DNA of 64,000 nucleotides from Henriciella sp. (GTDB taxonomy: Bacteria > Pseudomonadota > Alphaproteobacteria > Caulobacterales > Hyphomonadaceae). Every line of letters starts with the position of its first letter. Within the stretch, counting starts at the first letter, position 1. The stretch spans positions 1-64,000 of the forward strand of contig JASJAO010000003.1 in NCBI GenBank assembly GCA_030066975.1, written 5' to 3'. The notes under the pieces are model-generated. The model did no database searches. It saw nothing but the letters and a program-made list of their open reading frames with translations, and was not told where the DNA came from. A program made the translations under genes and the position numbers. Positions 7,316 to 32,487 of this stretch are shown here, piece after piece.

Positions 7316-8444
7316 GATCTGGTAAAACGGTCAGGATCGCATCAATCACGTTCGCGCCGAGCCGTTTGGAGCGCGGCGGCGACCAGCCAAAGCGCTCGTC
7401 CGGCAGTTCCGCGTTGTCCTTAAACGGCATTTCCAACGTCATCGCGAGGCAATCGAACTTTTCAGCAACCGCATTATTGCAAATGGTCAGATTGGCCTGA
7501 CCTGGCTTATTTTTGGGATAGCCATACTTGGTTTGAAACTCGCCGCCGCTTGACGCCACATAAGCGTGACTGAACCCGTTGAGCAGCGCGGCCTGTTTGT
7601 CCGTCCAACTCGGAATGCCCTCCGTACCGGCTATGAAATTGTACGGTATGGCCTCGTCGCCATGCACATCCAACGCGAAATCAACGCCGTTCTTCTTCAT
7701 CTCTTCAAGCACCAAAAAGACTTCGGGGCTTTTCTCCATGCTTGGCGACTGCCACTCGCGATTGAGATTGACGCCTGCCGCATTGGTCCTCAAGTGCCCG
7801 CGCGCGCTGCCGTCCGGGTTCATGTTTGGGACCACGTAGAGCACGGCCTGTTCGCGCAATTTCATCGCCATCTCATCGGTGAGATCAAGCAGACGTTCGA
7901 GAAAGCCTTCCATCCACCACTCAGCCATCGTTTCACCCGGGTGCTGGCGCGCCGTAATCCAGAGGGTCGGTTTGCCCTCTGCCGGTTCGCCGATTGTGAT
8001 CAGATCAAGGTCACGGCCATCGAGCGTTTGGCCAAGAATGCTAACCTTCGCCGCGCCGCTGCTTTGCGCGCCTGCGACAAGCTGGGCGTGACGATCACTC
8101 GGATACGGCGCGAAATAGGCTAAGTAGACGGCGTCCCGGCTGAGCGTCGTTTCGATGGTGAGTGCCTGTCCGTCATAACGCGTCGGCACCCGCTTCCATT
8201 CCATCAGATCATACGACACGACAGCGTTGTAATCGTCCCAGCCTTTCGGGTAAGCGGCGCCACCGGCGTTTTCAATGATCAGGCGAATATCCTGCCCACG
8301 CTCGCCTGTGACGCGAAAATAGAACCATTGATAGAAATCGGACTCGTTGTCTTTGCGGATTTCGAGGCGAACGTTTGATGGGTCGGACGCATCCTTCACC
8401 AGGATGTTGCCGCCATCAAAAGCGGACGAAATGTTCAGGGTCAT
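7308..8444 (-). CDS. M14 zinc carboxypeptidase, cytosolic CCP-like
   Basis: A protein of 378 residues. The N-terminal ~130 residues form the beta-sandwich pre-domain typical of the M14D (cytosolic carboxypeptidase/AGBL) group. The peptidase domain follows with H-P-G-E (zinc His and Glu), the N-M-N-P-D-G and N-L-N-R-E-W substrate-side loops, D-V-H-G-D (third zinc His) and the catalytic glutamate in T-L-E-M-P-F. There is no signal peptide, so it is probably cytoplasmic. Bacterial members are often annotated as carboxypeptidases of unknown substrate. Its ATG overlaps the stop of the upstream flavin oxidoreductase in an ATGA, so the two are translationally coupled. Confidence 0.88.
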   Translation of the reverse strand: MTLNISSAFDGGNILVKDASDPSNVRLEIRKDNESDFYQWFYFRVTGERGQDIRLIIENAGGAAYPKGWDDYNAVVSYDLMEWKRVPTRYDGQALTIETTLSRDAVYLAYFAPYPSDRHAQLVAGAQSSGAAKVSILGQTLDGRDLDLITIGEPAEGKPTLWITARQHPGETMAEWWMEGFLERLLDLTDEMAMKLREQAVLYVVPNMNPDGSARGHLRTNAAGVNLNREWQSPSMEKSPEVFLVLEEMKKNGVDFALDVHGDEAIPYNFIAGTEGIPSWTDKQAALLNGFSHAYVASSGGEFQTKYGYPKNKPGQANLTICNNAVAEKFDCLAMTLEMPFKDNAELPDERFGWSPPRSKRLGANVIDAILTVLPDLR

Positions 8445-9757
8445 GCAGGCTGTCTCTCTTTCAGAGCCGCCTGATAGGCTTTCGCCATTTTGCTGTCGAG
8501 CCCCTGCATTTTAAGGAAGGCACTGATCAGTCCGAGTTTGCGGTTCGGGCCTTCCCCATCCGCGATCCTGTGGAGTTGATGATAAAACCAGCCTTGCATG
8601 CCGAAGCCGTTCATCGCTTTAAACAGGCCAATGGAGGAATTTGGGCCAAACACGCCTGGGCCAATGCGCAGAATTTTCTCCCAGCTTGTCAGCTCGGTCA
8701 GCTCACCTGACAGCAACTGTTTGGGTGCATCAACGTCGACACAGAGCGGACGCCCAAGCCCGATCAAGTCGGCTTCACCGTCAGACAAGGCCGTATTCAT
8801 CGCCTCCACCGTTCTGAAGCCGCCCGTGACCATGAGCGGCATGGTCGCCACGCCCTGCACGTCGCGGGCATAGTCCAGAAAATAGGCTTCACGTTTGCGG
8901 GTACTTTCGCGGACCGGTTGGGCCTCACTGGGCTGAAGGCCTTCCATATCCATCATCTTTGGCTGCTCATAATTGCCGCCGGAGATCTCAACAAAGTCGA
9001 GATCCAGATCGTTGAGCATACCGATGACGGCCATGCTGTCTTCGCGGGAAAATCCGCCTTTCTGGAAGTCTGTAGAGTTGAGTTTGACCGAGACCCCAAA
9101 GCCCGGTCCGGCTTCGGCCTGAGCGGCGCGGATCGTTTCCAGCAGCAATCGGGCACGGTTTTCCAGCGGGCCGCCCCACTTATCGGTACGCTGATTCACA
9201 CGAGGGGTCAGAAACTGGGACATCAGATAGCCATGCGCCGCGTGGATCTGCACGCCGTCAAACCCGGCTTCACGAGCCGCGCGGGTGGCAATCGCAAAGC
9301 GGCCGATCAGCGCCTTGATATCATCGCCTGTCATGGCGCGTGGGGTCCCAAATTGTCCGCCGGGGAGTTCGACGGGCACAGCGCTCGGCGCATCCGGCTG
9401 TGGATTGATCATTTTCATGGTCTGACGCCCGGCATGCGACAGCTGCATCACCACTTTGCCGCCGGATGATTTGCACACCTCCGCCCAGCGCGACAGCATC
9501 GCCGCTTGCTCATTCGAGGGCTTGGCGTCGATCACAACATTGCCGGGCGCTTCGAGATTGCGCCGATCAACCTGCACATTTCCAGTGATCTGCAATCCGA
9601 TTCCGCCGTCGGCCCAGGCCTTATACAGTTTGAGGTGTCGTTCAGTGACATTGTTGTGCGGATCGGCGAGGCGTTCGGTCATCGCGGCTTTGACGAGGCG
9701 ATTGGGAATTTCAACGCCAGAACGGAGAGTTAATGACGTATTAATCATACTCGTCAT
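8441..9757 (-). CDS. NADH:flavin oxidoreductase, Old Yellow Enzyme family
   Basis: A protein of 438 residues with an FMN-binding TIM barrel. Seen are the N-terminal P-N-R-L-V-K-A-A-M-T-E, Q-L-S-H-A-G-R-Q, the H-A-A-H-G-Y-L-M-S-Q-F-L active-site segment, R-T-D-K-W-G-G-P-L-E-N-R-A-R-L, and the late T-G-G-F-R / G-L-G-R-P-L phosphate-binding motifs. These fix it as an OYE-type ene reductase or 2,4-dienoyl-CoA reductase-like enzyme; the FadH flavodoxin-like C-terminal part is absent. The ATG at 9757 follows AAGGAC; the upstream 63 codons overlap the parE promoter region and are not family-like. Substrate unknown; enone reduction is the family reaction. It is first in a two-gene unit with the carboxypeptidase. 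Confidence 0.88.
   Translation of the reverse strand: MTSMINTSLTLRSGVEIPNRLVKAAMTERLADPHNNVTERHLKLYKAWADGGIGLQITGNVQVDRRNLEAPGNVVIDAKPSNEQAAMLSRWAEVCKSSGGKVVMQLSHAGRQTMKMINPQPDAPSAVPVELPGGQFGTPRAMTGDDIKALIGRFAIATRAAREAGFDGVQIHAAHGYLMSQFLTPRVNQRTDKWGGPLENRARLLLETIRAAQAEAGPGFGVSVKLNSTDFQKGGFSREDSMAVIGMLNDLDLDFVEISGGNYEQPKMMDMEGLQPSEAQPVRESTRKREAYFLDYARDVQGVATMPLMVTGGFRTVEAMNTALSDGEADLIGLGRPLCVDVDAPKQLLSGELTELTSWEKILRIGPGVFGPNSSIGLFKAMNGFGMQGWFYHQLHRIADGEGPNRKLGLISAFLKMQGLDSKMAKAYQAALKERQPA
9730..9744. promoter_or_regulatory. Candidate CtrA-type box TTAA-N7-TTAA upstream of parE
   Basis: TTAATGACGTATTAA matches the full CtrA consensus of Caulobacterales (TTAA-N7-TTAA). It lies 68 bp before the parE start and inside codons 5-9 of the divergent flavin oxidoreductase. 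A GANTC methylation motif (GAATC) follows at 9772-9776. The match is exact, but one such short site can arise by chance and CtrA is not encoded in the window. Confidence 0.3.
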
Positions 9758-27678: not shown

Positions 27679-29139
27679 TTATTCTGCCGCGATCCGGTCA
27701 GTTGCATTCACAATATGGAGAGGTGGCTGGGTCGCCCAATCAGCAACCTGCTCAAGGTCGTAATATCGGCAGGCCTCCATCAGGATGCGAACCTCGGTCC
27801 ACATGTCACCATCCACAATCGGCATAAACAGGTCATTGATATTGTCGATACCGAGATAAGTCCGCACACCAGCCTCTTTCAGCTTCACAAAAGGCCCAAT
27901 CGAGTTGTGCAGCGGCGCCGTCATCGGCAATTGCTTCATGCTAAGCGCTGCAGACGGACAGATCACGATGCCGACATCGGCTTCCTTACAGAGCGCCGCG
28001 ATACGGTTCTGCTCGCTTTCATCCTTCGCCGAGACGGAGATGGAATGGATGCCATAAACCCGTCCCTGCATACCGTGTTCAATCGTCTTCAAACATAGCA
28101 ACTCGGTCTCGTTCTGATAAGGATTGTTTTCCTGATCGACATGAACCTCAACCATCTTGCCCAGCTCTTTGGCCGTGTTCATGACAATATCGAGATGCTT
28201 TTCCTCTTGCGGACGGTCGCGTGACGGCAGTCCGCCACAGAAATCCGCGAGCTTACAGGCTTCGATATATTGAGCCCGGGAGGCTTCATCGAGTACGCCT
28301 TCAAGCGGCTGCACGCCGATCTCGAAATTGATCTTGTGCTTGAACCGCTCTTTGACCTCGACCGCGGCATGGATCGGTTTCAGGCCGATAATGCTGTCGG
28401 CATCGACCATGGTCCGGCAGTATTGCGAGCCCTGATCGACCACGGTCTGCAGCGCGCGAGAAATCCGCTCAACCAGATCTTCGTGCGTGTAATTCTCCTT
28501 CAAGTGCCGATAGAGTTCCCACTTCTTCTCCATATCGGCAAAGCCGAGCGCCAGGTTCTCTGGAGAGATCAGATAGGCTTTGTCAAAGTGCCCATGATGG
28601 TTGGAAAAACCACCGCGCTCTCGCACCAGTTCGAGGAACCGGGCCTTCAGGTCCCACGGGCTGTCCTCAGAGCGGATTTTGTAGCTATAGGTCCCCGCCT
28701 CGACATCTTTGAGGACCAATTCGATCGTTTCGCGAGCCACCTCGCGATCAGTATAAAGCGGGATGCCATGTTTGACGGATAGCGAGCGAATACCGGCAGC
28801 ATCAGAGGCTTCATCATAGGTCGTGTCGCCGGTCAGAATATTGACCACAAAATCGACTTTACCGTCGGTGATCAGCGTCTGAATGTTCGGCTCTTCACCG
28901 CTCGAAATCTTGCGAGCGGCGACGGACTCGACCCCGTTTTCCTTGAGGTAGCGATGGGTCCCGGGCGTGGCATAGAGACCAACCCCGATGGCCGCCATTT
29001 TCTGACAGACCTCCAATAGATAGGCCTTGTCTTCCATCGACCCCGCGCTGATCAGAAGCGAGCGTTTATGCCCCTTCGCCAGCATTTTTAGGTTGAAGCC
29101 AATCAGATCAATTTTCGAGTATGGATCCTGTGCCGCCAT
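27679..29139 (-). CDS. MGS-like domain fused to a cytosine-deaminase-like amidohydrolase
   Basis: A protein of 486 residues in two parts. Residues about 25-150 follow the MGS-like fold of CarB and PurH C-termini: L-Y-A-T-P-G-T-H near 56-62, then P-N-I-Q-T-L-I, F-V-V-N-I-L-T-G-D and G-I-P-L-Y-T-D. Residues about 175-486 are an amidohydrolase with H-H-G-H-F-D-K (H182/H184), V-H-V-D (H333), G-I-H-S (H365) and G-I-D-N-I-N-D-L-F (D432), the ligand set of CodA-type cytosine or isoguanine deaminases. The MGS part in CarB senses nucleotides, so regulation by a purine or pyrimidine nucleotide is a fair inference. The substrate is unknown. SD AGGAGGG precedes the start. It is upstream of infA on the same strand. 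Confidence 0.8.
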   Translation of the reverse strand: MAAQDPYSKIDLIGFNLKMLAKGHKRSLLISAGSMEDKAYLLEVCQKMAAIGVGLYATPGTHRYLKENGVESVAARKISSGEEPNIQTLITDGKVDFVVNILTGDTTYDEASDAAGIRSLSVKHGIPLYTDREVARETIELVLKDVEAGTYSYKIRSEDSPWDLKARFLELVRERGGFSNHHGHFDKAYLISPENLALGFADMEKKWELYRHLKENYTHEDLVERISRALQTVVDQGSQYCRTMVDADSIIGLKPIHAAVEVKERFKHKINFEIGVQPLEGVLDEASRAQYIEACKLADFCGGLPSRDRPQEEKHLDIVMNTAKELGKMVEVHVDQENNPYQNETELLCLKTIEHGMQGRVYGIHSISVSAKDESEQNRIAALCKEADVGIVICPSAALSMKQLPMTAPLHNSIGPFVKLKEAGVRTYLGIDNINDLFMPIVDGDMWTEVRILMEACRYYDLEQVADWATQPPLHIVNATDRIAAE

Positions 29140-31469: not shown

Positions 31470-31498
31470 TTGAATTCGGCACACTTTGGTGGCATATT
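31470..31498 (+). promoter_or_regulatory. Promoter of the toxin-antitoxin module
   Basis: TTGAAT (31470-31475) and CATATT (31493-31498) are separated by 17 bp, a good sigma-70 layout, ending 19 bp before the antitoxin start codon. The -10 element lies inside the palindrome described next, so a bound repressor would block it directly. Confidence 0.5.
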
Positions 31499-31508
31499 GC
31501 CACCAAAG
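31484..31508. promoter_or_regulatory. Perfect palindrome, operator of the toxin-antitoxin operon
   Basis: CTTTGGTGGCA (31484-31494) and its exact complement TGCCACCAAAG (31498-31508) flank the 3-nt centre TAT. The 25-bp palindrome covers the -10 element and ends just before the antitoxin SD. Ribbon-helix-helix antitoxins autoregulate through such sites, so this is the likely operator of the following gene pair. The palindrome is seen; the binding is inferred. Confidence 0.7.
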
Positions 31509-31517
31509 GACATTCGA

Positions 31518-31883
31518 ATGGCACGCTCAATCAAAATACCTGACGAAGAAATGGACATTCTGCGCCGCGAGGCGGAGCTGTCCAGTCGCTCTCTGTCTGG
31601 ACAGGTGGTGCACTGGCTGCGGATTGGTCGCTCGATCGAGCAATCTCCGCAATTCACCTATAGCCATGTTCGCGAGGCCCTGGCGGCCTTGCGCAGTCCC
31701 GACGCACTGACCCCCGAAGAACAAGATGTGTTCATCGATGATCTCCTCGGCGCAGCCGCAGATGGTACGCCTGAGCAGCAGGCCACGTTTGCAGCGCGCA
31801 AACGTAAGGGGCTCGGCGTTGGCCTGAGCCCAGAGGGTGAGACCCTCTACGAAGCAGCTGACGCCACTGACGACGCTGCCTGA
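31518..31883 (+). CDS. ParD-like antitoxin
   Basis: A protein of 121 residues. The N-terminal ~50 residues (A-R-S-I-K-I-P-D-E-E-M-D-I-L-R-R-E-A, then S-G-Q-V-V-H-W-L-R-I-G-R) match the ribbon-helix-helix ParD-like antitoxin family, with a beta strand and two helices for DNA binding. The rest, up to an acidic tail (E-A-A-D-A-T-D-D-A-A), likely wraps the toxin. It starts at ATG 31518 with SD AAAGGA. Its last 47 bp overlap the zeta-type toxin gene, the classic coupled antitoxin-first order. It replaces the epsilon antitoxin found in plasmid epsilon-zeta systems. Confidence 0.78.
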   Translation: MARSIKIPDEEMDILRREAELSSRSLSGQVVHWLRIGRSIEQSPQFTYSHVREALAALRSPDALTPEEQDVFIDDLLGAAADGTPEQQATFAARKRKGLGVGLSPEGETLYEAADATDDAA

Positions 31884-32487
31884 ACCGTCGCCGCTTCTGT
31901 TCGTCATTGCCGGCCCGAATGGTGCAGGCAAAACGACGTTTTATGAAACAGTTCTAAAGCCCCGCATACAGGCGCCTTTTATCAACGCGGACCTGATCCA
32001 GAGAGATGAGCTGGCCGAGCCATCTATGAAAGCCTCGTACGAGGCTGCCCGGTTGGCTGAGACCCGGCGACAGGACCTGATCGCCGCTCAAAAAAGCTTC
32101 GTCACGGAAACCGTCTTCTCTCATCCTTCCAAACTTGATCTCCTGACCACGGCCCGCGCGAGCGGTTATCGTCTGGTCGTGTTTCACCTGAACGTTCGCC
32201 ATCCGGACCTTTCCGTAGCGCGCGTCGAAGAACGCGTCAAAGAGGGCGGGCATCCTGTTCCGGAAGACAAGATCCGCGGTCGCTATGAGCGAAACCAGTC
32301 GCTGATCCGCACCGCGATAATGATGGCGGATCGCGGCGGCGTGTATGATTCAAGCGCCCTGAACGCGCCGCCTGTCGAGCTGCTCAGATTTACAGCTGGT
32401 GTGATCATGCGGGCCGAGCCGGACCTGCCGGACTGGTGCGAAGCGCTTTATGCGGCGTCGCTGAAACGGTTCAGAGCCGGGCTCTAA
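31837..32487 (+). CDS. Zeta-family toxin kinase
   Basis: A protein of 216 residues. Walker A is G-P-N-G-A-G-K-T-T at 26-34. The segments F-I-N-A-D-L-I-Q (substrate-side Asp), E-T-V-F-S-H-P and H-P-V-P-E-D-K-I-R-G-R-Y-E-R match the chromosomal zeta/COG4185 kinases. Plasmid zeta toxins phosphorylate UDP-N-acetylglucosamine and poison wall synthesis; chromosomal relatives are less well understood. The start is GTG 31837, overlapping the antitoxin gene by 47 bp, so translation is coupled. The stop overlaps the convergent crotonase by 4 bp. Confidence 0.82.
   Translation: MRPSTKQLTPLTTLPEPSPLLFVIAGPNGAGKTTFYETVLKPRIQAPFINADLIQRDELAEPSMKASYEAARLAETRRQDLIAAQKSFVTETVFSHPSKLDLLTTARASGYRLVVFHLNVRHPDLSVARVEERVKEGGHPVPEDKIRGRYERNQSLIRTAIMMADRGGVYDSSALNAPPVELLRFTAGVIMRAEPDLPDWCEALYAASLKRFRAGL

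Follow-up and report, generated by a model that had tools for sequence, protein, structure and literature searches.

An MGS-amidohydrolase fusion predicted to be UMP-regulated and to replace PyrB and PyrC by making dihydroorotate from argininosuccinate

A stretch of 64,000 nucleotides from a Henriciella sp. contig (JASJAO010000003.1; hereafter, the window) encodes a fusion of an MGS domain and an amidohydrolase, which we propose is a UMP-regulated enzyme that replaces PyrB and PyrC by converting argininosuccinate to dihydroorotate and ornithine. We infer the substrate, products, and effector from gene content, operons, conserved residues, and fold, and put the probability of this reading at roughly 0.7. 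Any organism that makes uridine nucleotides is assumed to have PyrB and PyrC, whose reactions are the first two committed ones in pyrimidine synthesis. To our knowledge, no pathway makes dihydroorotate without them, and we therefore count the argininosuccinate route as new, even though the fold and domains are familiar. If true, the reaction would be new to enzymology and would connect arginine directly with pyrimidines in biochemical terms; the apparent lack of pyrimidine steps in several groups of bacteria would have an explanation, and metabolic models that call the carriers auxotrophs would need correcting.

The fusion is one open reading frame on the minus strand, complete from ATG to stop, with exactly the boundaries given in the original prediction (Table 1). 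Both halves match Pfam families above their cut-offs. The MGS domain predicted at the N-terminus was recovered with PF02142 (E 5.8e-18, 65.3 bits versus a cut-off of 24.1), while the hydrolase half is barely above threshold for Amidohydro_1 (27.5 bits versus 25). A much stronger match is to NCBIfam NF005365/PRK06886 (cut-off 340 bits), a family named only “hypothetical protein.” We modeled the protein with AlphaFold2 from 45 sequences (mean pLDDT 85), replacing an earlier model from 16 sequences (pLDDT 72). The N-terminal half of the model matches the MGS domain of human CPS (2yvq). The modeled hydrolase half matches cytosine deaminases and AtzC, which is consistent with the CodA-type fold originally proposed; among solved structures, 5-methylcytosine deaminase and CodA are the nearest in fold. 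The metal and catalytic ligands named in the original prediction (H182, H184, H333, H365, and D432) are all present and are invariant across 45 homologues.

Table 1. Positions of the fusion gene, its domains and predicted functional residues in the window, and of related features in a Euryhalocaulis MAG
Feature	Position	Strand	Evidence or remarks
CDS, MGS-amidohydrolase fusion, 486 aa	27679..29139	-	full-length orthologues in Hyphomonadaceae, Hirschia, Hyphomicrobium, Desulfobulbaceae
MGS-like nucleotide-binding domain, aa 41-130 by Pfam	28750..29019	-	PF02142, 65.3 bits; model matches 2yvq
Predicted nucleotide-phosphate ligand positions K38, T58, T61, K77, N100	28840..29028	-	phmmer alignment with 1a9x (E. 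coli CarB)
Amidohydrolase domain, PRK06886/NF005365, aa 164-477	27709..28650	-	513.6 bits; CodA/AtzC fold
HxH metal ligands H182 and H184, then D186 and K187 (AtzC Lys65 position)	28579..28596	-	alignment of 45 homologues
Metal ligand H333 with D335-Q336 (position of CodA Glu217 / AtzC His219)	28132..28143	-	comparison with CodA and AtzC; alignment of 45 homologues
Catalytic H365 (CodA His246 / AtzC His249)	28045..28047	-	comparison with CodA and AtzC; alignment of 45 homologues
Metal ligand D432 and N433 (AtzC Asp303-Asn304; CodA Asp313-Asp314)	27841..27846	-	comparison with CodA and AtzC; alignment of 45 homologues
Euryhalocaulis MAG, degenerate PyrB and frameshifted fusion copy	L066 (G060:C22:36800-40300), L033:6001-7468		

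Full-length fusions occur in the Hyphomonadaceae, Hirschia, Hyphomicrobium, another alphaproteobacterium, and the Desulfobulbaceae, including cable bacteria. All of these fusions form one clade in the phylogenetic tree (support 100/99). Because the fusion is kept in several lineages and is a single clade, it is genuine and not an assembly artefact. Homologues in the Patescibacteria consist of the hydrolase without the MGS domain, and phages and plasmids yielded only distant CodA-like proteins and no orthologues. In keeping with the original prediction, we found no characterized protein that joins an MGS domain to a deaminase-like enzyme. Open-licence papers, which leave room for prior publication elsewhere, contained nothing on PRK06886, an MGS-argininosuccinate synthase fusion, pyrimidine gaps in Patescibacteria, or an argininosuccinate route to dihydroorotate.

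With one exception, described below, genomes that carry the fusion lack PyrB and class-I PyrC. We compared 25 genomes of the window's genus, 12 with the fusion and 13 without, counting OTCase-family genes by PF02729 and searching for dihydroorotase by TIGR00857, which covers class-I PyrC only. Every carrier (12/12) has exactly one OTCase-family gene and no full-length PyrC by TIGR00857, while every non-carrier (13/13) has at least two OTCase-family genes and a full dihydroorotase scoring above 300 bits. Based on HPCQ, SMG, and HCLPAHRG-type motifs, the single OTCase-family gene is ArgF in every carrier fetched (G000, G003, G007, G013, G024, Hirschia, G043, two Hyphomicrobium, and two Desulfobulbaceae). 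In two fetched non-carriers, the extra OTCase-family gene is PyrB, with a PyrC-like gene adjoining it. Outside the genus, the carriers G042-G049 and G065 likewise never exceed one OTCase-family gene, and TIGR00857 detects no PyrC in them. PyrD, kept by carriers and non-carriers of the genus alike, was present in 36 of 37 genomes tested, the exception being one incomplete carrier MAG, and the proteobacterial carriers tested keep CarB, ArgG, and ArgH, save for gaps in the smallest, incomplete MAG.

The genomes of the window's genus cannot be read as 25 independent points, a treatment that we rejected on the basis of the PyrD tree: the non-carriers form one clade (97/88), so the 12 versus 13 contrast represents a single switch. 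On the alphaproteobacterial PyrD tree, carriers require at least two changes, and the Desulfobulbaceae add another. One exception to PyrB loss is the Euryhalocaulis MAG G060. Its PyrB is degenerate, with the carbamoyl phosphate and catalytic motifs STRT, VKKGE, and HPTQ all missing, and the assembled fusion gene of this MAG contains a frameshift. Taken together, these patterns of gene content make it very likely that the fusion protein replaces PyrB and PyrC in the genomes that carry it.

The Patescibacteria homologues point to the substrate. We surveyed 380 Patescibacteria genomes; 20 of them, from across the phylum, have a family member scoring at least 296 bits, and in all 20 of these sampled carriers the hydrolase adjoins ArgG or ArgH or lies one gene away. 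Whenever ArgG occupies such a position, an MGS domain forms its C-terminal end. Several operons also include genes for later pyrimidine steps: L032 reads hydrolase, ArgH, ArgG-MGS, PyrD, PyrK, PyrE, PyrF, with the first six each above a curated cut-off, and L153 reads ArgG-MGS, hydrolase, PyrD, PyrE, two other genes, PyrF. Carriers reached through their loci are mostly without CarB, any transcarbamylase, or PyrC (TIGR00857). In nine such genomes (G050, G051, G052, G054-G057, G061, and G062), ArgH is present while ArgG, CarB, transcarbamylase, and PyrC are all missing; in G053 and G064, ArgG is present and ArgH was not detected. ArgG makes argininosuccinate from citrulline and aspartate, and ArgH running in reverse makes it from arginine and fumarate. 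Since ArgH occurs without ArgG in the nine ArgH-only genomes, argininosuccinate could be formed there only from arginine and fumarate. From this known enzyme chemistry, we infer that argininosuccinate is the only metabolite common to all of the gene settings.

The sampled Patescibacteria carriers differ in whether PyrB is retained. It is also encoded in nine of the 20, all with the hydrolase linked to ArgH (G110, G241, G281, G290, G349, G358, G374, G425, and G433); another nine have no transcarbamylase, and of the remaining two, one has an ArgF-like gene alone and the other a divergent transcarbamylase. None of the nine carriers with ArgG-MGS linkage has an ordinary PyrB. The Nomurabacteria carrier G058 has carAB-pyrB-pyrC. 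We interpret the ArgG-MGS type as the principal route and regard the ArgH-only type as in some cases an auxiliary, arginine-consuming one, or possibly one with another function; in the ArgH-linked carriers that keep PyrB, the hydrolase is either an addition or serves some other purpose. We dropped PyrD without a transcarbamylase as a marker of the route in Patescibacteria: the pattern proves nothing alone, since many non-carriers also show PyrD and no transcarbamylase.

A few other genes at these loci deserve mention. In L156, a DDAH/arginine dihydrolase-like gene (8224-9027, minus strand) lies between ArgG-MGS and the hydrolase and is a possible source of citrulline, and L164 includes an aspartate ammonia-lyase-like gene. 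A SLOG/LOG-like protein recurs inside the Patescibacteria pyrimidine operon (L153:10232-10807; L024:9368-9937, the latter identified by eye). In G427, an ArgH-hydrolase pair is followed by CarB and CarA (L163:5991-13356), and no transcarbamylase was found in that genome.

Some conserved residues of the hydrolase resemble those of AtzC (N-isopropylammelide isopropylaminohydrolase; 2qt3, 4cqb), an enzyme that cleaves an alkylamine off a ring carbon and differs from CodA at Lys65 (CodA Thr66) and Asn304 (CodA Asp314) (PMC4577212). The two proteins share a fold (Foldseek E 5e-16, TM to target 0.64) and metal ligands, and AtzC Lys65 and Asn304 correspond to K187, which is K or R in 45/45 homologues, and N433, which is N in 42/45. 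However, identity is only ~25%, AtzC acts on a xenobiotic triazine and lacks a regulatory domain, and its Gln160 and His219 are not kept in the fusion family, which has L279 and D335/Q336 instead. The family also has its own invariant residues, K206, W207, Q336, N338, H411, N412, and S413, which we consider candidates for binding a polar substrate.

A mechanism can be proposed on these grounds. In argininosuccinate, the free guanidino nitrogen would attack the beta-carboxylate of the aspartate part, and a six-membered cyclic form of the argininosuccinic anhydride type would arise, either on the enzyme or spontaneously. We take one argininosuccinate anhydride to be the six-membered ring that this mechanism requires. 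Formation of anhydrides from argininosuccinate is itself documented (named in PMC3488504). Metal-bound hydroxide would then attack C2 of the ring and expel the delta-amine of ornithine, much as AtzC expels isopropylamine from N-isopropylammelide, and dihydroorotate would pass to PyrD, PyrE, and PyrF. Ornithine would return through ArgF in the proteobacteria or leave the cell in Patescibacteria living on arginine. The mass balance is exact: the atoms of argininosuccinate (C10H18N4O6) are those of dihydroorotate (C5H6N2O4) and ornithine (C5H12N2O2) combined, and arginine and fumarate likewise add up to argininosuccinate. The original suggestion of a two-step reaction may thus hold, in the form of this proposed cyclization and hydrolysis.

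The MGS domain suggests how the step would be controlled. Positions K38, T58, T61, K77, and N100 align by phmmer with E. coli CarB K954, T974, T977, K993, and N1015; they are invariant in 16 fusions, and the MGS domains examined from ArgG-MGS, AsnS-like-MGS, and CarB proteins have the same five residues without exception. CarB K954, T974, and N1015 contact the nucleotide phosphate, as do the other two. Thr977 and Lys993 are crucial for UMP binding and UMP inhibition of E. coli CarB (PMC6245113). Nucleotide feedback, one of the roles originally suggested for this domain, thus appears likely from the retained ligands, and UMP is probably the effector, while the bound nucleotide could instead be IMP or another. 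Apart from the fusion, the only MGS domain that a search with the whole protein found in the window's genome lies in an ~1100-aa frame, about the size of CarB. The fusion resembles CarB in its ligands and in the logic of feedback at the head of pyrimidine synthesis, but its MGS domain is N-terminal and joined to a hydrolase, not a synthetase. The domain moves between partners, sitting on the hydrolase in the fusions and on ArgG in Patescibacteria, and we interpret each partner as the committed step in its setting. Binding of UMP or a similar nucleotide would throttle the first committed step, which would be the hydrolase where ArgG is shared with arginine synthesis and ArgG where it is dedicated to the pyrimidine pathway. 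If true, this is a clear case of a regulatory domain relocating to the committed step.

MGS domains also occur on other partners in Patescibacteria. The same operons include an AsnS/AsnA-like catalytic domain with a C-terminal MGS domain that keeps the nucleotide ligands (L161:10471-11970, L168:8180-9598). In a non-carrier Patescibacterium (L189, G083:C40), a 454-aa PyrB-type ORF also matches MGS and is possibly a PyrB-MGS fusion, again placing the domain on a committed step.

The original prediction of a cytosine, isoguanine, guanine, or similar nucleobase deaminase under nucleotide control is not supported by this comparison, and we regard it as extremely improbable. CodA and 5-methylcytosine deaminase (1k6w, 4r7w) do share the fold and the complete, conserved set of metal ligands, but at 21-23% identity, and CodA has no MGS domain. 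In place of the CodA proton shuttle Glu217 and the base-reading Gln156 and Asp314, the family has Gln336, Leu279, and Asn433 with near-complete conservation, and the NCBIfam cytosine deaminase cut-offs are missed widely (84.9 versus 438 bits and 70.3 versus 483 bits). Comparative genomics places the gene with argininosuccinate and the de novo synthesis of pyrimidines rather than with nucleobase salvage, and a salvage enzyme would leave both the loss of PyrB and PyrC and the ArgG/ArgH operons unexplained. The protein also falls outside dihydroorotases as defined by TIGR00857, with no match to that model and HGHFDK at the position of the HxHxR motif. That motif difference also counts against a bifunctional enzyme making dihydroorotate from carbamoyl phosphate and aspartate, with carbamoyl phosphate in the MGS phosphate site and the amidohydrolase acting as dihydroorotase. 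Such an enzyme would fit the loss of both PyrB and PyrC while proteobacterial carriers keep CarB, as well as the binding of phosphate groups by MGS domains. However, the nucleotide ligands of CarB are retained in the MGS domain, the Patescibacteria homologues are MGS-less and CarB is absent from most of the genomes tested, and the hydrolase sits with ArgG/ArgH, all of which make it very unlikely.

Two further alternatives accept a link to argininosuccinate or arginine. In one, the enzyme replaces only PyrB, hydrolyzing argininosuccinate to N-carbamoyl-aspartate and ornithine, with ring closure left to another, unrecognized dihydroorotase. Guanidine hydrolysis would suffice for this, the formulas balance with one water, our PyrC search covered class I (TIGR00857) as distinct from class II (the E. 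coli type), and carriers have other amidohydrolase-like proteins with short and weak TIGR00857 matches. Yet no fusion carrier has a dihydroorotase above the TIGR00857 cut-off, operon L032 lacks one although all later steps are present, and the nearest relatives of the enzyme act on rings, so we consider this version unlikely. In the other, the enzyme is a catabolic arginine or argininosuccinate hydrolase with no role in pyrimidine metabolism, and carriers without PyrB and PyrC are pyrimidine auxotrophs. While the ArgH-linked copies in the nine PyrB-keeping Patescibacteria genomes and the dihydrolase-like gene in L156 would suit catabolism, carriers keep PyrD, several Patescibacteria operons place PyrD/E/F directly with the hydrolase, and the MGS domain has pyrimidine-effector residues; we judge this highly doubtful.

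Conversion of argininosuccinate to dihydroorotate would thus define a de novo pyrimidine pathway in which one enzyme bypasses the joining of carbamoyl phosphate and aspartate to carbamoyl-aspartate. On balance, we also favor the broader view that some Patescibacteria without carbamoyl phosphate synthetase and any transcarbamylase build pyrimidines by this pathway from arginine, with fumarate or via citrulline and aspartate, and that a UMP sensor sits on the first committed step of each organism. The fusion would share with PyrB plus PyrC its product and place in the pathway, but it has no sequence relation to PyrB, is only a distant superfamily relative of PyrC, and would use argininosuccinate instead of carbamoyl phosphate and aspartate. 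The arginine synthetase route of Thermococcus kodakarensis similarly feeds arginine/citrulline carbon into pyrimidines without carbamoyl phosphate synthetase; however, carbamoyl phosphate remains an intermediate there, and the canonical PyrB and PyrC act on it in the usual way (PMC13260591).

Within the window, comparison with reference proteins identified no pyr or arg gene, and the fusion gene stands alone. The neighbors conserved across the genus are an enoyl-CoA hydratase-like gene and one for a 636-aa protein, neither with an obvious connection to the fusion, and a TPR protein encoded upstream in the Desulfobulbaceae looked unrelated. Elsewhere in the window (31470-32487), a small ORF is followed by an ORF for a zeta-toxin-like P-loop kinase, which by eye is possibly a toxin-antitoxin pair.
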